NCBI GenBank assembly: GCA_947476625.1
Contig: CANJRA010000003.1
Location: 64,821-128,820 of the forward strand
Source of the DNA: Fidelibacterota bacterium
GTDB taxonomy: Bacteria; Pseudomonadota; Alphaproteobacteria; Rhodospirillales; Rhodospirillaceae
Direction: 5' to 3'
Length of the DNA: 64,000 nucleotides
Part shown: in pieces, positions 21,292 to 28,208 of the stretch
Layout: each line of letters begins with the position of its first letter
How positions within the stretch are numbered: position 1 is the stretch's first letter
Notes under the pieces: generated by a model
What the model saw: only the letters and a program-made list of their open reading frames with translations
The model's database searches: none
What the model was told of the DNA's origin: nothing
Position numbers and translations under genes: made by a program

Positions 21292-21352
21292 TTTCGCCAA
21301 AACCAAGGCGTCTAATACCCCTATAGGTAGGCGACCCAACATGGAGGACGTC

Positions 21353-21700
21353 ATGTCTTTTAAAACGCAAATAATTCTCGCCGCTATTGGCTGCCTGCTG
21401 GCAGGCCCGATCCTCGCCGCAGAGGCCGAAACCGCCCCGATCCAATTGAGTGATTTAGGTGGTGTTAAATCCTGGAAAGTCGGCAGCGATACGGTGGTGT
21501 TCATTAAGAGCAAGACCGATCAATGGTATAGGGCCGAAATGCTTGAATACTGCATGAAGTACGACACCAGCAAGGGCGTGAACTTCATCACCGAACTTGA
21601 TCCGGTTACGAACGTTAAGACCAGTGCCGTCGTTGTAGAACGCCACATGTGCAAGATCACGTCTCTCACGAAGGTAGATGCTCCCACCCTCGCGAAATAA
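21353..21700 (+). CDS. Small exported protein, paralogue 1 (DUF6491-like)
   Basis: 115 residues from ATG 21353. It has a Sec signal peptide (MSFKTQIILAAIGCLLAGPILAA) and a short mature domain with the pattern DLGGVKSWKVGSDTVVFI, then DQWYRAEMLEYC and a second cysteine near the end (ERHMCKIT). The next gene encodes a protein with the same pattern, so the two are tandem duplicates. The family resembles DUF6491, whose function is unknown; the paired cysteines suggest a disulphide. Confidence 0.72.
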   Translation: MSFKTQIILAAIGCLLAGPILAAEAETAPIQLSDLGGVKSWKVGSDTVVFIKSKTDQWYRAEMLEYCMKYDTSKGVNFITELDPVTNVKTSAVVVERHMCKITSLTKVDAPTLAK

Positions 21701-21714
21701 ATCAGGAGAATACG

Positions 21715-22089
21715 ATGAAAATTGCCCTTTTCATTCCTACCGCTGCCGTCCTTGGCCTCGTGTGTGTTGCCTCCGTTGCTCAGGCGGCGCGCCCCGAAAT
21801 CGCCTTTGCCAATAACGGCGGTATCCGTAACTGGCAGGCCGACGGTCAGAAAACGCTCTATGTGCAGGGCAACGGTGCACAGTGGTACAAGGCCGAGTTC
21901 TTGAGCAACTGCACAGGCATAGATTTCGCCGAACAGATTGCCTTCGAGACTGAGACGAGCGGCGCTTTTAATAAATTTAGTTCTGTCTTGGTTGAGGGAC
22001 GCAAGTGCCCCGTCTCGAGCTTTGAAAAGAGTGACAAGCCGCCGACCAAGAAAGAAAAAGCCGCTAGAGAATCCGGCACGACGCCGTAA
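21715..22089 (+). CDS. Small exported protein, paralogue 2 (DUF6491-like)
   Basis: 124 residues from ATG 21715, with CAGGAGAA just upstream. It has a signal peptide (MKIALFIPTAAVLGL and on to AQAA) and a mature part that mirrors the preceding gene: NGGIRNWQADGQKTLYV, AQWYKAEFLSNC and GRKCPVSSF. A lysine-rich tail (KPPTKKEKAARESG) is added. The two genes are 14 bases apart and surely co-transcribed. Function unknown. Confidence 0.75.
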   Translation: MKIALFIPTAAVLGLVCVASVAQAARPEIAFANNGGIRNWQADGQKTLYVQGNGAQWYKAEFLSNCTGIDFAEQIAFETETSGAFNKFSSVLVEGRKCPVSSFEKSDKPPTKKEKAARESGTTP

Positions 22090-22111: not shown

Positions 22112-23272
22112 CTAGGCTGACTTCAAGAAGTCGCCGATGGCCCGCGCGGCGCGCGTCGACGAAGGCGTGTCCTGCAGATCAAACGTCGTGCGGAAAGCGG
22201 CTTCCTGCACAGGCCGGTACTTGGTATAGACCGCGGGATCGGCGTGCAACGCACGGTCCAACTCATCGATCGCGTTCACCACCGGGCCGAAGTTCCAGAA
22301 GGCATAATTGGGATCGTTCTTCCAATCGGCCTTATGGGTATTGATAAAAATACATGGCCGCGGCGCGATCAGGAATTCGTAAATCTGACTGCTGACGTCG
22401 CCGAGATAAATATCGGCGGCAAGCGTGTAGGTCATATCGAAACTGGCGGGACTGCCGAGATCGACGTGGATATGTGGACAGCGGAGGTATTTTTCCGGCA
22501 GGTCGCGCCGCCACCGCGCCGTGAGACCTTCGACAGTCATGTGCACGCGGCGTTTGAACAGCATGATGTGAGGCGCAAAAATCAAATTGCACTCGGTGCT
22601 GTTGTAGAAATATTCCAGCACATCTAGGCCCATATCGTACCAAGACGACAGGCGCGGCTCCGGGTGCGGGTTATAGAGCACCACCGGCTTTGCATTATCA
22701 AAAAACTTGCGCCGCCGTCCCGCGGCCACGTCGACGGTGTCGAATTTTGGGTAGCCGATGACGGCGATCTGTTCGGGGCGCAGGTAGCCCAATTCCAAAA
22801 ATCTGTCGCGCTGCTTGAGGCCGTGCAGCAGGACAAGATCATTACCACCGAATGATTTTGTAAAACCTATAGAGCGGTCGCCGGCGCCGTGATCGATGCG
22901 CAGGATTTTCAGATGCGCGAGTCCGCGCAGCTTGCGGAGAAAGAGGCTGGTGCCCTCGGTGACAATGACGGCATCGAAACGGCTGAAAAGTGCCGCGTTA
23001 CTGTAAAGGTTATCAAGCCTGCTGAAGGGCAGAACAAGATCAAGTGCGCGCGTGAAAGGCTTGTGCCACGCCGGAACGTCAAGCTTCAGAAAGCGAACGC
23101 GTCCTTCGACGGTCGGCCCGGCCAGCGCACGCACAGTCTCAAGCAGCACATCGGATGTCGCAAGAACCGTAACCTCTATGTCGGGATATTGGGCAATCAG
23201 CGCAGGGATCACGACAGCGCTATGACGGGCCTGGTGTCCACCCCCGTGATTATAGAGAAACGCGACCTTCAT
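22112..23272 (-). CDS. CDP-glycerol glycerophosphotransferase-like GT-B transferase
   Basis: 386 residues with a two-Rossmann GT-B layout. The start MKVAFLYNHGGGHQARHSAVVIPAL is glycosyltransferase-like. The C-terminal half has YNPHPEPR, then LAADIYLGDVSSQIYEFLIAPRPCIFINTH, which resembles the DxSS...P.IF donor-site motif of TagF-type CDP-glycerol glycerophosphotransferases. It probably transfers a nucleotide-activated unit to a surface glycan or lipid. It overlaps the upstream nucleotidyltransferase by four bases and is the last gene of a three-gene operon that also includes a CMP-sugar synthetase fusion. Donor and acceptor are unknown. Confidence 0.75.
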   Translation of the reverse strand: MKVAFLYNHGGGHQARHSAVVIPALIAQYPDIEVTVLATSDVLLETVRALAGPTVEGRVRFLKLDVPAWHKPFTRALDLVLPFSRLDNLYSNAALFSRFDAVIVTEGTSLFLRKLRGLAHLKILRIDHGAGDRSIGFTKSFGGNDLVLLHGLKQRDRFLELGYLRPEQIAVIGYPKFDTVDVAAGRRRKFFDNAKPVVLYNPHPEPRLSSWYDMGLDVLEYFYNSTECNLIFAPHIMLFKRRVHMTVEGLTARWRRDLPEKYLRCPHIHVDLGSPASFDMTYTLAADIYLGDVSSQIYEFLIAPRPCIFINTHKADWKNDPNYAFWNFGPVVNAIDELDRALHADPAVYTKYRPVQEAAFRTTFDLQDTPSSTRAARAIGDFLKSA

Positions 23273-24102
23273 GGTACGCGCCGTGCCGCGAGAACACTTT
23301 CGGCAATCGGAATGTGATCCGGGCGGTCGACATCCATGGCAGCGACGGGATCAGTCAGCACGATGGCCTTGGCTTTCAAACCCATCGCACGCGAAACCGC
23401 ACGGAGAGCGCCTTCAAGATCGAGGAATCCGGTCACGGCCCGCAGCAGCGTCCACACACCGAAATGCAAAATCAGCTGCCACGGTTTCTTGCGCCGCCCC
23501 TCGACTTCGCTCCAAGCGCGCGCAGCCTTAGGTCCAGCGCCGGGCGTCAGCGCGAAGAGATTGCAGCCGCTGTAGCCTTCGCCGCCGAGCCGGATATAGG
23601 TGCGCCTCACATGCGGGAAAGACGCGCGGATCTCCGTTTCGCGGGCCAGGCCCACAGCAGCATCGACATCATCGGGTACGCCCGCACAAAAGGCGTCGAG
23701 CGTCGCCGGTGTCAGCAGCGGATTGTCGGCGGTGGTGACCAGCACCGCGCCCTCGAACCGCTGCTCTTCCATGGTTTTGAGCACACTGGTCGCCGGGCTG
23801 GTTGCGCCTTCGCGGAAACTGAACCGGTGCGCGCTGGGAGCGATCGCGGCCTGCACGTCGCTGTTATTCTGTATGTCCGCGACAGTGTTGGCGACGATCA
23901 CGATGTCGCCGATATGCTTAGCCGCCAGCAGGGTTTCAAGCACATAAAGGATCATCGGACGGCCGAGGAGCGGCAGCAGCGCCTTGCGCTTGCCGGGCGA
24001 AAGCTGCGCCAGCACGTCGGCCGGGCGGTCGCCTGCAAGCAGAATGACGGTAAAAGACGCTGGCACAGAAGTCCCCGGATGAGCCGTGATACCGCCCTTC
24101 AA
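23269..24102 (-). CDS. MobA-like nucleotidyltransferase
   Basis: 277 residues of the NTP-transferase superfamily. The N-terminal FTVILLAGDRPADVLAQLSPGKRKALLPLLGRPMI is a slightly altered form of the LAAGxGxR...K nucleotide-binding loop, and TTADNPLLTPATLD carries the metal-binding aspartate. It probably activates a sugar, polyol or acid with CTP or another nucleotide. Middle gene of the operon: 18 bases after the cytidylyltransferase-RraA gene and overlapping the transferase gene by four bases. Confidence 0.78.
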   Translation of the reverse strand: MKGGITAHPGTSVPASFTVILLAGDRPADVLAQLSPGKRKALLPLLGRPMILYVLETLLAAKHIGDIVIVANTVADIQNNSDVQAAIAPSAHRFSFREGATSPATSVLKTMEEQRFEGAVLVTTADNPLLTPATLDAFCAGVPDDVDAAVGLARETEIRASFPHVRRTYIRLGGEGYSGCNLFALTPGAGPKAARAWSEVEGRRKKPWQLILHFGVWTLLRAVTGFLDLEGALRAVSRAMGLKAKAIVLTDPVAAMDVDRPDHIPIAESVLAARRVP

Positions 24103-24120
24103 TAGCGGTAAACGGGGAAG

Positions 24121-25419
24121 TTAAAAAGTGCCGTGTTTATCGGTTACCTTACCGACGTCCTCGCCCATGATGATGCCGTAGCGGATGTCGAATTCCTTTT
24201 TCATGGTCGCCATCGCTTCGTCGCGGATCGAGGGCCAAAGGTCCTGGGGGATCGCCAGCACGCCGTCATCGTCGGCATAGACATAGTCGCCGTTATTGAT
24301 GGTCACGCCGCCGATCTTGATGGAACGGTTCATGGCGTAGGCGGTACCTTCATATTTGATATCGTCGCAGTAGATGCCGTGGGCAAAGACCGAGAATTCG
24401 AGCTGATTCAGTTCGGCGGAATCGCGCGTATAGCTGTCGACCACGGCACCCACCGCGCCCGAACGGATGGCGATGTTGGCATTGAGATCGCCGAAGTACG
24501 CGAATTTCTTTACGTCGTTTTGCACGCAGATGACGTCGCCCGGGCGAACGAAATTGTAGCTGGCCTGAGCGGTATAGATGCCCTTCCAGTCGTCGCCTTT
24601 CTTCAGCTTGCGCAATTCCAATGTCTTGGCTACGCCGAGAATGGAACGGCCGCTGATGCGCTTGAAACCGGGCGGAAACAACGCTTTGATGCCGCGCTCT
24701 TTGCAGATGTCGGCCAGCAGCGACGAACACAGATGCGGGCGAATGGCATCGAGCTTAGCGTTGTGCGCGGCGCGGTAACCGGCGCAAATGCGCTCGGCGA
24801 GTGACAGATCATCGGGCCAGTTGACGTCGAAGGCTTCTTCGTCGGTCAACTCAAACAACACCACCTTGTCGCCAAAGCGGCGCTTGGGTTTCGGTTTGCC
24901 CTTTTGCTTGCGGACCATATAGAGGCCCATGGACTCAAGCACGGTCTCGGGCAGATCGACGGAATTGGGAATGCGGCCTTCACCATAAGCAGGGGGCCCC
25001 TTTTCCCAGGTGTACTGCTTGCGCTTCTGCACGGCGACCAGAGAGTCCGCCTTGGCGTCGGCTTTCAACGCCTTGATCGCCTGCGTCATGGTCTCGGCGG
25101 TCATGAAGGGGCTAGTGCACAGACATTGGATGTAGATGTCGGCTTCGACCTGTTTGCACTCGTTGGCGAACAGTTCATGGCCATCGGTTTTGTTAGAGGC
25201 CAGCGTCGGCTTGCGCTTGAGGATTTTGACCGGCAGGTCCGAGGCCATTTCGATGATGGCATCGGATTCCGTATCCAAATACACGTCATCGATCTCGGGA
25301 CAGGCGAGTAGCTGTTTAAGTTTGCGCTTAAAAAGATAGTCGCCGTCGAGAATGACGGTGTTTTTGTTACGGATGCGGGTGCTTTCACCCTTCGCGGGCA
25401 CAAACGCCACGGTACGCAT
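24121..25419 (-). CDS. CMP-sugar synthetase fused to an RraA-like aldolase domain
   Basis: 432 residues from ATG 25419 (GGGAGA upstream). Residues 1-220 are an acylneuraminate/KDO cytidylyltransferase domain: MRTVAFVPAKGESTRIRNKN, then YIQCLCTSPFM and ELTDEEAFDVNWPDDL. Residues 225-432 are an RraA/HMG-aldolase-like domain: FGDLNANIAIRSGAVGAVVD, then SYTRDSAEL, keeping the Arg-Asp pair that aldolases of this family use, and YVYADDDGVLAIP. I infer one chain that may form or split a 2-keto acid by pyruvate-type chemistry and activate the acid with CMP. First gene of a three-gene operon with a nucleotidyltransferase and a glycerophosphotransferase-like enzyme. Confidence 0.82.
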   Translation of the reverse strand: MRTVAFVPAKGESTRIRNKNTVILDGDYLFKRKLKQLLACPEIDDVYLDTESDAIIEMASDLPVKILKRKPTLASNKTDGHELFANECKQVEADIYIQCLCTSPFMTAETMTQAIKALKADAKADSLVAVQKRKQYTWEKGPPAYGEGRIPNSVDLPETVLESMGLYMVRKQKGKPKPKRRFGDKVVLFELTDEEAFDVNWPDDLSLAERICAGYRAAHNAKLDAIRPHLCSSLLADICKERGIKALFPPGFKRISGRSILGVAKTLELRKLKKGDDWKGIYTAQASYNFVRPGDVICVQNDVKKFAYFGDLNANIAIRSGAVGAVVDSYTRDSAELNQLEFSVFAHGIYCDDIKYEGTAYAMNRSIKIGGVTINNGDYVYADDDGVLAIPQDLWPSIRDEAMATMKKEFDIRYGIIMGEDVGKVTDKHGTF

Positions 25420-25568
25420 CGATAGTCTCCCACCCAAATTAGGGAATTACCCGGCTGTACCCTAGGACCAGCTGGTTAAAAATTGGTTCTAAAGGGTGTC
25501 ATCCGCTTGAACCGACAGGTTAATCCTTTACGCTGGCGCAACCCCCTCATCCCTCGTGCGGACATCCC

Positions 25569-28208
25569 ATGAAAACCGAGCAGCCCCCCAAAAACGCCCC
25601 GACTGTTATCCGTCTGGCCGATTACACGCCGCCGGACTACCAGATTGACTCCGTGGACCTGGTTTTCGACCTGGACCCGCAGGCGACCCGCGTCAAAACG
25701 ACCTTAAAAATTACCAGCGCCCACGACCGCGCCAAGGGCGTAAGGCCGCTGGAATTGAACGGCGAGCACTTAAAACTGCTGAGCATTGCCATCGACGGCA
25801 AACCTTTGGCCACCGACGCCTATGAGGTGACCGACGAAACCCTGACCATTGCCCTGCCCCCCGCCGCCTTCACGCTGGAAACCGAGGTCGAGATTAGCCC
25901 GGAGGCCAACAAGGCGCTGGAAGGTCTGTACGTTTCGCGCAGCGTGTTCTGCACCCAGTGCGAAGCCGAAGGCTTCCGCCGTATTACCTATTATCCCGAC
26001 CGCCCCGACGTGATGTCGGTGTTCCGGACCACCGTGCGCGCGCCGAAGCAAAGCCACCCGGTGCTGCTGTCTAACGGAAATCTGAGCACGCAGGGTGACC
26101 TGCCGGATGGTCGTCACTATGCCGTCTGGGACGATCCGTTCCGCAAGCCGTGTTACCTGTTCGCGCTGGTAGCGGGCGATCTCGCGCATATCGCGGACAC
26201 GTTCACCACCATGTCCGGGCGCAAAGTCGATTTGCGCATTTATGTCGAGCACGGCAAGCAAGACCGCGCCGGGTATGCCATGGACTCACTCAAGCGCTGT
26301 ATGCGCTGGGACGAGACTGCCTTTGGGCGCGAATACGACCTCGATATTTTCAACATCGTCGCGGTCAGTGACTTCAACATGGGGGCCATGGAGAACAAGG
26401 GCCTCAATATCTTTAACGACCGCTACATTCTGGCCGATCAGAACACCGCCACCGACATGGACTACTATTTGATCGAGTCCATCGTCGCGCATGAATACTT
26501 CCACAACTGGAGCGGCGACCGTGTCACCTGCCGCGACTGGTTCCAGCTCAGCCTGAAAGAGGGCCTCACGGTCTTCCGCGATCAGGAATTCACCGCCGAC
26601 ATGCGCAGCCGCGCCAACAAACGCATCGACGATGTCGAAGTGCTGCGCGTCACGCAGTTCCGCGAAGATGCCAGCCCCCTCGCCCATCCCGTGCGGCCCG
26701 AGAGCTATATCGAGATCAACAACTTTTATACGTCGACGGTCTATCAAAAAGGCGCCGAAGTCATTCGCATGATGAAGACGCTGCTGGGGCCGGAGAAATT
26801 CCGCGCGGGCATGGACCTCTATTTCAAACGGCACGACGGTGAAGCCGTCACCTGCGAAGACTTTGTCCTGTCCATGGAAGACGCTTCCGGCGTTGACCTC
26901 GAGCAATTCCGGCTGTGGTACAGCCAGGCCGGCACGCCGCGTATTACCGCCTCCTGTGAATTCGACGTCGCGCAAAAGACATTCAGCCTCACGTTGACGC
27001 AAGAATGTCCGCCGACGCCGGGCCAGCCGGACAAGAAGCCTTTTCATATTCCTGTCGCCGTGGGCCTTGTCGGCGCGACCGGCCAAGACATTCCGATTAA
27101 GACCAATGTGCTTGAGCTGAAGACGCCGCGCGAAACCTTTGTCTTTACCGATGTACCCGGGCCAAAAGCACCACGCCTGTCAATCAACCGCAACTTCGCC
27201 GCACCGCTGGTCGTCAATTTCACCCAGAGCGACGAAGACCGTGCTTTCCTCATGGCGCATGATTCCGACGCTTTCAACCGCTGGAACGCGGCGCAGGGCT
27301 ATGCGTCGACCATCATTTTGCGCGCGGTGGCCGATCTTCAGGCCGGACGCACGCCGCAGCCTGACCAGAACTTCATTGATGCTGTCGGCGTGGCGATCGC
27401 CGATGACAGTATCGCGCCGGCATTCAAAGCATCACTGCTGAGCTTGCCGACCGAAGACTACATCGCCAACTTGATGGAACGCGAAGATCCGATCAATCTT
27501 CATGCCGCGCGCAAGGCCGTGCGGCGCTTTGTGGGTGCGCATCATCGACCCGCGCTGCAGCGTCTTTACGATGCATCCCGCACCAACACGCCTTACAAGC
27601 CCGACGCCGACGGCATGGGCGAACGGCTTTTGAAGCGCACGGCGCTTGGCTATCTCGCGACCCTGGAAACACCGGAAACAACCAAGCTGGTCAAAAGCCA
27701 ATTCGACAGCGACGATAATATGACCGACCGTATGGATGCGCTTTCGATCCTCAACGCCCTGGACGCACCCGAACGCGTGCAGGCGCTAGATGCGTTCTAT
27801 GAGCAGTTCAAACAGGATCATCTGGTGGTCAACAAGTGGCTGACCGTTCAGGCCAGCGCGCCGTTGCCGGGAACGCTTGCTACGGTGAAGGCCTTGATGA
27901 ATCACAGCGCCTTCGACATCAAGAACCCCAACAAGATTCGCGCATTGATCAATACGTTCTCGTTGATGAACCCGCTTAATTTTCACGCCGCGGATGGATC
28001 GGGATACGCATTCCTTGCCGATCAGATCCTAGCCATCAACGCCTTTAATCCCCTCACCGCCGCACGCCTCGTGGCGCCTTTGGGTCGGTGGCGGCGTTTT
28101 GACCAGCAGCGACAGGCGCTGATGAAGGCGCAGCTTGAACGGTTGGCGGCAGCGCCGGGCCTATCGCGGGATGTGCTTGAGCTCGTGATGAAGGGCATCA
28201 ACGGCTAA
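25569..28208 (+). CDS. pepN: Aminopeptidase N
   Basis: Zinc M1-family peptidase that removes N-terminal residues from peptides in the cytoplasm. At 879 residues it has the length of E. coli PepN. The substrate-binding GAMENKGLNIFN and the zinc site HEYFHNWSGDR (His308, Glu309, His312, with the distal Glu in LKEGLTVFRDQEF) are intact. The C-terminal DUF3458-type helical domain is complete. It stands alone, converging on emrB with two bases between the stop codons. Confidence 0.97.
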   Translation: MKTEQPPKNAPTVIRLADYTPPDYQIDSVDLVFDLDPQATRVKTTLKITSAHDRAKGVRPLELNGEHLKLLSIAIDGKPLATDAYEVTDETLTIALPPAAFTLETEVEISPEANKALEGLYVSRSVFCTQCEAEGFRRITYYPDRPDVMSVFRTTVRAPKQSHPVLLSNGNLSTQGDLPDGRHYAVWDDPFRKPCYLFALVAGDLAHIADTFTTMSGRKVDLRIYVEHGKQDRAGYAMDSLKRCMRWDETAFGREYDLDIFNIVAVSDFNMGAMENKGLNIFNDRYILADQNTATDMDYYLIESIVAHEYFHNWSGDRVTCRDWFQLSLKEGLTVFRDQEFTADMRSRANKRIDDVEVLRVTQFREDASPLAHPVRPESYIEINNFYTSTVYQKGAEVIRMMKTLLGPEKFRAGMDLYFKRHDGEAVTCEDFVLSMEDASGVDLEQFRLWYSQAGTPRITASCEFDVAQKTFSLTLTQECPPTPGQPDKKPFHIPVAVGLVGATGQDIPIKTNVLELKTPRETFVFTDVPGPKAPRLSINRNFAAPLVVNFTQSDEDRAFLMAHDSDAFNRWNAAQGYASTIILRAVADLQAGRTPQPDQNFIDAVGVAIADDSIAPAFKASLLSLPTEDYIANLMEREDPINLHAARKAVRRFVGAHHRPALQRLYDASRTNTPYKPDADGMGERLLKRTALGYLATLETPETTKLVKSQFDSDDNMTDRMDALSILNALDAPERVQALDAFYEQFKQDHLVVNKWLTVQASAPLPGTLATVKALMNHSAFDIKNPNKIRALINTFSLMNPLNFHAADGSGYAFLADQILAINAFNPLTAARLVAPLGRWRRFDQQRQALMKAQLERLAAAPGLSRDVLELVMKGING

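Follow-up and report, generated by a model that had tools for sequence, protein, structure and literature searches.

A three-gene operon with a CMP-sugar-acid synthetase–RraA fusion suggests an undescribed way of decorating the bacterial cell surface

Two kinds of described system come closest to the locus considered here, a three-gene operon on the minus strand of a 64,000-nucleotide stretch of alphaproteobacterial DNA (the window; G000:C3:64821-128820, part of contig C3). Reading of open reading frames and Pfam matches place the operon at 22112-25419, where a fusion of a cytidine monophosphate (CMP) sugar-acid synthetase domain with an RraA-like domain is followed by a MobA-like nucleotidyltransferase (NTP) and then by a probable GT-B-type transferase (GPT). 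The first system is the Caulobacter pathway to ceramide diphosphoglycerate (CPG2; PMC12275187, PMC13228409, PMC11324152, PMC10331486). CPG2 needs CC_1153 (a CofC-like nucleotidyltransferase), CC_1152 (a second nucleotidyltransferase) and CC_1159 (a CDP-alcohol-type transferase), and the same Caulobacter region contains a potential flippase (PMC11324152). By numbering offset, CC_1152 is the CpgD of PMC12275187, where it is likened to IMPCT. The likeness lies in the types of gene involved (nucleotidyltransferase, lipid kinase, CDP-alcohol transferase and flippase), as some genomes have members of the NTP and GPT families in the vicinity of spt and of genes for a flippase, a lipid kinase, a CDP-alcohol transferase or an IMPCT/CpgD-type protein. 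Unlike the CPG2 genes, the window operon includes no ceramide gene and adds a probable CMP-ulosonate synthetase. The second system is that of group 2 capsules with TagF-like polymerases (PMC5974469, PMC11666461), with which the operon shares the logic of combining a CMP-activated 3-deoxy-D-manno-oct-2-ulosonic acid (Kdo) with a CDP-polyol. Unlike those capsule systems, the window genome (G000) has no match to Capsule_synth (KpsC/KpsS), and GPT falls under the cut-off of its family. We read the product of the operon, with a probability of roughly 0.4, as an acidic lipid of the envelope or a glycan linked to a lipid.

Each half of the fusion also has described relatives. The N-terminal half shares its fold, a Gln, the first metal Asp and a CTP_transf_3 match above cut-off with the CMP-Kdn, CMP-sialic acid and CMP-Kdo synthetases (9t4z PpNeuA, 6ifd, 1eyr, KdsB/KpsU). 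Unlike these, the fusion has the second metal Asp replaced by Asn in the copies aligned, reaches no named NCBIfam equivalog and carries an extra enzyme-like domain. The C-terminal half has the fold and D-x20-R-D motif of the 4-hydroxy-4-methyl-2-oxoglutarate/4-carboxy-4-hydroxy-2-oxoadipate (HMG/CHA) aldolase and RraA family (3noj, 3k4i), but it is fused, has a CxD[IV][KR]xxxT lid in place of the substrate- and phosphate-site residues, and reaches no equivalog model. Many members of the RraA family have no assigned role. In NeuA-HAD fusions a CMP-synthetase is joined to a phosphatase-like domain, and the present protein likewise combines a CMP-synthetase with a second domain, the partner being RraA and not HAD. 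No description of a CMP-synthetase–RraA fusion was found, and no paper with both 'RraA' and 'cytidylyltransferase' turned up among the PMC papers searched, which leave out most subscription papers.

The fusion gene (24121..25419, minus strand) encodes 432 residues from an ATG start with GGGAG upstream. From the reading frame, Pfam, the structural model and the alignment, it consists of a NeuA-type CMP-sugar-acid synthetase domain (~1-200) and an RraA-like aldolase domain (~232-432). CTP_transf_3 is matched at residues 5-125 with 50.3 bits (cut-off 22.6) and RraA-like at residues 235-388 with 91.6 bits (cut-off 24.5), and both the TRDS and FGDLN motifs are present, confirming the domain combination first described in a reading made from the sequence alone (the sequence-only reading). 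An AlphaFold model (pLDDT 82.6, from a 28-sequence alignment) shows two domains joined by a helix. Foldseek with this model ranks CMP-Kdn synthetase 9t4z first, the RraA-type protein 3k4i second and the HMG/CHA aldolase 3noj tenth; we take 9t4z to be the P. parvum enzyme of PMC6200933. In NmCSS the metal site is formed by Q104, D209 and D211, and the D211A mutation lowers kcat 15,000-fold (PMC2901514). By our own assignment of positions in the alignment, the fusion retains Q98 and D198, and the position of NmCSS D211 is Asn200 in 31/31 copies, a set that includes many close relatives. The NCBIfam equivalog cut-offs are missed by a wide interval (PseF, 41.9 vs 205.7; best KdsB-type model, 37.7 vs 193). 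On balance the N-terminal half is probably a CMP-ulosonate synthetase.

In the RraA half, profile and sequence alignment places D311, R332 and D333 at the positions of 3noj D102, R123 and D124. The Arg-Asp pair is conserved in 31/31 copies, as is an acidic residue three positions after the Asp, which is Ala in L026, a copy outside the 31. The Asp of the Gly-Asp element is kept in 29/31 copies and is Glu in L072 and L074. An incomplete RraA active site had been named in the sequence-only reading as fatal to its pathway idea; by sequence alignment the aldolase residues are kept, and the model has the RraA fold. Several substrate-side positions of 3noj are changed in the fusion, and a conserved fusion-specific lid, CxD[IV][KR]xxxT (C to S in L073), lies where the HMG aldolase has phosphate-site residues. 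The LigK/PcmE and RraA equivalog models are not reached (62.6 vs 304.5 and 43.9 vs 136). The domain is somewhat more likely than not to be catalytic. The fusion copy of G327 (L073:9168-10352) ends early, at 394 residues, after the RraA lid.

The genes around distant fusions point towards a Kdo-type sugar acid. In nine loci (L059-L067, from Novosphingobium, Sphingomonas, Sphingomonadales and Hyphomicrobiales records), a gene for a protein named here FYLP, a KpsF-type gene and the fusion occur in this order in 9/9 cases. KdsA directly follows the fusion in two of them, L059 and L063, both above the TIGR01362 cut-off; the contig of L061 ends at the fusion. Two of the nine were scanned with the KpsF model (cut-off 203.7), with a score of 232.8 bits for L063 and one of 202.6, just short, for L064. 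Among eight genomes searched (that of L061 left out), five have a contig that bears Capsule_synth genes and, next to each other, KdsA and a KdsB-like gene with a strong CTP_transf_3 match, and G809 has KdsA and a strong CTP_transf_3 gene on separate contigs. G802 and G805, in which KdsA is part of the fusion operon, each have one weak further CTP_transf_3 match (19.4 and 27.2 bits), and Capsule_synth was found in neither. The simplest reading is that the fusion does the job of KdsB in these two genomes, unless the assemblies are incomplete. The more distant fusions lie in surface-glycan-like surroundings: in L072 near a sub-threshold Capsule_synth gene, in L073 beside O-antigen-like genes (by reading), and in L074 adjoining a CTP_transf_like (TagD-type) gene, with a Glyphos_transf gene of 180 bits ~6 kb on and a sub-threshold GT29-like gene.

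Sialic, legionaminic and pseudaminic acid were considered as substrates in the window organism and rejected for want of NeuB, which has no match in the window genome and is missing in 11/18 fusion genomes searched (own included) and present in seven. KdsA is found in 16/16 fusion-bearing genomes searched, including that of the window, and therefore a supply of Kdo dependent on phosphoenolpyruvate (PEP) exists. The sequence-only reading held that the fusion makes or checks a keto acid and activates it with CMP. Activation is supported by the fold (9t4z) and by the KpsF and KdsA neighbours in distant relatives. With KdsA in all 16 genomes, the RraA half may make the acid or act in another direction. 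A role of the RraA half in replacing the KdsC phosphatase was also rejected: KdsC is above cut-off in just 1/16 fusion genomes (G460), but a Caulobacter control likewise gives no match, and fusion genomes are therefore not alone in lacking it. A Kdo-type substrate is somewhat better than an even bet, and the most likely identity of the fusion is a synthetase of the CMP-Kdo type with an aldolase domain attached. The FYLP protein, so called from its 'FYLPVxTPWWF' motif (e.g. L064:5796-6932), has no Pfam match in the L064 copy and no solved relative better than E 0.5; hhalign finds a distant similarity to the sub-threshold Capsule_synth-like neighbour in L072.

The second gene (NTP, 23269..24066, minus strand) matches NTP_transf_3 (MobA-like) at 49.8 bits against a cut-off of 27, and remains below the NCBIfam equivalog cut-offs for MobA, IspD (29.4 vs 181.3) and CofC (18.1 vs 105). 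Its longest reading frame begins at TTG 24102, 18 bases from the fusion, which is the spacing originally given. GTG 24066 is the better start because an in-frame stop lies just upstream in the relative in L037 and conservation in the alignment begins about there; with this start the gap is 54 bases. The close packing of three minus-strand genes holds, with a four-base overlap between NTP and GPT. Within the window's family, L094, L096 and L097 have a related flippase next to the NTP relative or one gene away from it. In L095, NTP occurs with a CDP-alcohol transferase, a HAD and an IMPCT-type gene, and in L093 a relative lies beside a 2-hydroxyacid dehydrogenase. Relatives in L094 and L098 directly adjoin an MmgE/PrpD-type gene (by Pfam in L094 and by reading in L098). 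The identification of NTP with CpgD was tried and rejected. CpgD is likened to IMPCT (PMC12275187), whereas among solved structures NTP comes closest to TTHA0179, and in L095 it has an IMPCT-type gene as a distinct neighbour; NTP is therefore probably not CpgD.

The third gene (GPT, 22112..23272, minus strand) was initially called glycerophosphotransferase-like, a weak label. Weak similarity to Glyphos_transf is present in the C-terminal part only, at 21.6 bits under a cut-off of 22.1, and 14/16 GPT members match at E<=0.01 (best 3.3e-6). The model of GPT (pLDDT 71.7) best matches UDP-GlcNAc 2-epimerase and GT-B glycosyltransferases, with TM-scores of ~0.5. A relationship to the FYLP transferase was also considered and is not supported by hhalign. 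Elsewhere in the class, GPT occurs in 11/384 genomes, with a marginal match in G324, and in none of the fusion genomes of the class search. Ten of these neighbourhoods were read (L121-L130), the eleventh, L131, being left out. Two of them, L125 and L126, have the order flippase-GPT-aasR-cerR-acpR-spt, with CDP-alcohol transferase and DAGK genes within an 18-kb stretch; the names aasR, cerR and acpR are given by Pfam type and gene order, and Spt of L125 scores 676.5 bits (cut-off 500). In L123, 6-9 kb separate GPT from a CDP-alcohol transferase gene and an IMPCT-type gene, all within 13 kb. L129 contains two GPT genes, a flippase, an NTP (35% identical, no Pfam match) and DAGK. The GPT-family gene between the flippase and the ceramide genes (L125:8347-9474, L126:8046-9179) may be an unrecognised phosphosphingolipid gene. 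In L129:1545-4704 a protein with a GINT1_N domain (glucosamine inositolphosphorylceramide transferase family) is flanked by the two GPT copies. The chance that GPT and NTP act on a lipid head group is about even.

Among 61 genomes (the window's own, G000, and 60 relatives), the fusion occurs in 22, GPT (E<1e-100) in 17 and the three genes as a contiguous triad in 15 (G000-G002, G005-G012, G014-G016, G026). The arrangement is thus not due to chance, being contiguous in 15/22 fusion-bearing genomes, and co-occurrence of the three genes elsewhere, on which the sequence-only reading had staked its pathway, is borne out. The other 14 triad genomes are 82-89% identical to the window in the fusion and 57-77% in both NTP and GPT, with the fusion of G016 in two pieces (83 and 74% identical) owing to a split frame. 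G004 has fusion and NTP without GPT at a contig end, G024 has GPT and the fusion on different contigs, and G003, G013, G019, G020 and G035 have the fusion without GPT. In G017 an NTP-GPT pair is found at a contig start, 283 bases after the beginning of the contig. Wider profile searches (E<=1e-60, own genome counted both times) find the fusion in 3/385 genomes of the class and 2/398 of the phylum. The notion that GPT is found only alongside the fusion was rejected, as it holds in the 61 genomes bar G017 and a weak match in G045, and is false in the class. Two fusion copies occur in G004 (G004:C159, L055, and G004:C207, L100), one cut by the contig end. The fusion frame is split in L057 (also G016) and L067, by sequencing error or decay.

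We infer function from the operon, its domains and residues, synteny and genome contexts, all of which are observed directly. The N-terminal half of the fusion would use CTP to convert a 3-deoxy-2-keto sugar acid to the CMP sugar, as its fold, residues and neighbours suggest; Kdo, or something closely related to it, is the most likely acid. The RraA half would act on this 4-hydroxy-2-keto acid as well, by metal-dependent pyruvate-enolate chemistry, and might build the acid, cleave a surplus of it or invert C4 by retro-aldol and aldol reaction. NTP would use a nucleotide to activate another small phospho-unit. GPT, a putative GT-B-type enzyme probably using a cytidine nucleotide, would then move one of the two activated units to a lipid acceptor, a step that would resemble bacterial phosphosphingolipid head-group assembly. 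The original proposal of an activated keto acid and a second activated unit is upheld in part: the acid is probably Kdo-like, and GPT and NTP lean towards a lipid head group.

Several observations weigh against an operon that makes an acidic lipid or lipid-linked glycan. The second metal Asp is Asn in every fusion aligned, and CMP transfer may therefore be altered or lost, although conservation this strict would argue against decay. The contiguous triad is missing in 7/22 fusion genomes, so the fusion probably can work without NTP and GPT, and window-type and sphingomonad-type fusions share only ~50% identity, so that their substrates may differ. In the window's family, the fusion loci gave no match to KpsF or KdsA. 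G802 and G805 are metagenome-assembled genomes (MAGs) and may be incomplete, and the presence of KdsA in all 16 genomes is weak support because makers of lipopolysaccharide (LPS) in general have KdsA. The confidence of the GPT model is modest (71.7), and profile comparison links GPT neither to the FYLP protein nor to the L072 neighbour. Six of the ten GPT neighbourhoods read (L121, L122, L124, L127, L128 and L130) have no lipid-head-group link, and the genes called IMPCT-type match only weakly, at 38.9 and 42.9 bits (vs 580). By tblastn, the window has no match to the flippases, lipid kinases, CDP-alcohol transferases and IMPCT-type proteins encoded at other loci; the same is true of the ceramide genes (spt, cerR), for which the rest of the window genome was not searched.

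Two alternatives concern the RraA half. It could, in a strong form of the idea in the sequence-only reading, provide a PEP-free route, condensing pyruvate with a sugar aldehyde while the CMP half traps the product and pulls the unfavourable aldol reaction forward. The D-x20-R-D motif and the lid at the phosphate-site position of the HMG aldolase are consistent with this, a KpsF-type gene beside the fusion could supply an arabinose unit, and NeuB is missing in 11/18 genomes. However, the PEP-dependent synthase KdsA is found in every fusion genome searched and directly after the fusion in 2/9 distant loci, and we consider such a route quite improbable. Alternatively, the half may be structural or regulatory, leaving the CMP half as the sole enzyme. 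Mammalian CMP-sialic acid synthetase, with its non-catalytic C-terminal domain, offers a parallel. In E. coli, RraA is a modulator of the RNA degradosome, to which it binds (PMC5065237). In the fusion, the Asp of the Gly-Asp element is Glu in 2/31 copies and several 3noj substrate-side residues are changed. The invariant Arg-Asp pair, kept across groups of ~50% identity, and the conserved lid count against this view, which we regard as improbable.

The other two alternatives concern NTP and GPT. In a teichoic-type polymer pathway, NTP would make a CDP-polyol, GPT would be a TagF-like glycerophosphotransferase and the fusion would provide a Kdo-type linker as in group 2 capsules. The Glyphos_transf matches in 14/16 GPT members, a weak match of GPT to the TagF-like Cps3D (E 0.015), the weak likeness of NTP to IspD and the arrangement in L074, with its TagD-type gene and true Glyphos_transf, all fit. 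GPT itself is under the Pfam cut-off, though, and hhalign yields no significant similarity between GPT and the Glyphos_transf protein of L074 (probability 1.4%). The window genome has no Capsule_synth gene and no export gene was noticed in the window, while GPT relatives of two genomes lie in a ceramide cluster. The TagF/polyol interpretation of the sequence-only reading is thus weakened by the ceramide-synthesis, lipid-kinase, CDP-alcohol transferase and IMPCT/CpgD-type neighbours seen in some genomes, and we rate this pathway a poor prospect. It is also conceivable, if unlikely, that the fusion works alone and that NTP-GPT is a separate lipid module which only happens to share the promoter of the fusion, in a single genus and a sister genus. 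The seven fusion genomes without a contiguous triad, the 11/384 class genomes with GPT, none with the fusion in the class search, and the greater divergence of GPT and NTP (57-77% identity, against 82-89% for the fusion) are in keeping with this. Set against it are the four-base overlap of NTP and GPT and the fact that 16 of the 17 genomes with GPT (E<1e-100) among the 61 have the fusion, the 17th being G017, in which the contig begins just before NTP.

The operon is preceded by an intergenic region (25420..25568), with the ribosome-binding-like GGGAG before the fusion ATG, and by a divergent pepN-like gene on the plus strand (25569-28208). At 21341-22089 (plus strand), convergent with the operon, is a tandem pair of small proteins that resemble each other and have leader-like N-termini; the pair adjoins the operon in many relatives. 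The remaining genes of the window have a housekeeping look on reading of the called proteins, and no export gene was noticed among them, in agreement with the earlier statement that no polymer export gene is present in the window. A mobile origin of the operon was rejected, with no plasmid-collection match at E<=1e-30 and no phage-collection match at E<=1e-10. The genome is 2.6 Mb in size and is given as 100% complete and 0.48% contaminated. Its nearest relatives among named records are MAGs under the names Rhodospirillaceae, Caenispirillum or, often, Candidatus Marinimicrobia.

Both halves of the fusion belong to known superfamilies, and no published description of their combination was found. 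The fusion ties an RraA-type domain to a sugar-acid pathway of the Kdo type, so that a direct test of its substrate is possible. For GPT, an unnamed transferase family, a gene context of flippase, ceramide and IMPCT/CpgD-type genes is now available, and the family is a candidate for steps still called unknown in the CPG2 papers. As a long shot, a CMP-Kdo-type synthetase with its own aldolase could remodel the acid before activation, by C4 inversion or PEP-free synthesis, and GPT could place it, or the unit activated by NTP, on a phosphosphingolipid. If true, the product would be an acidic lipid that resembles LPS but lacks lipid A. The operon suggests an undescribed way of decorating the cell surface.

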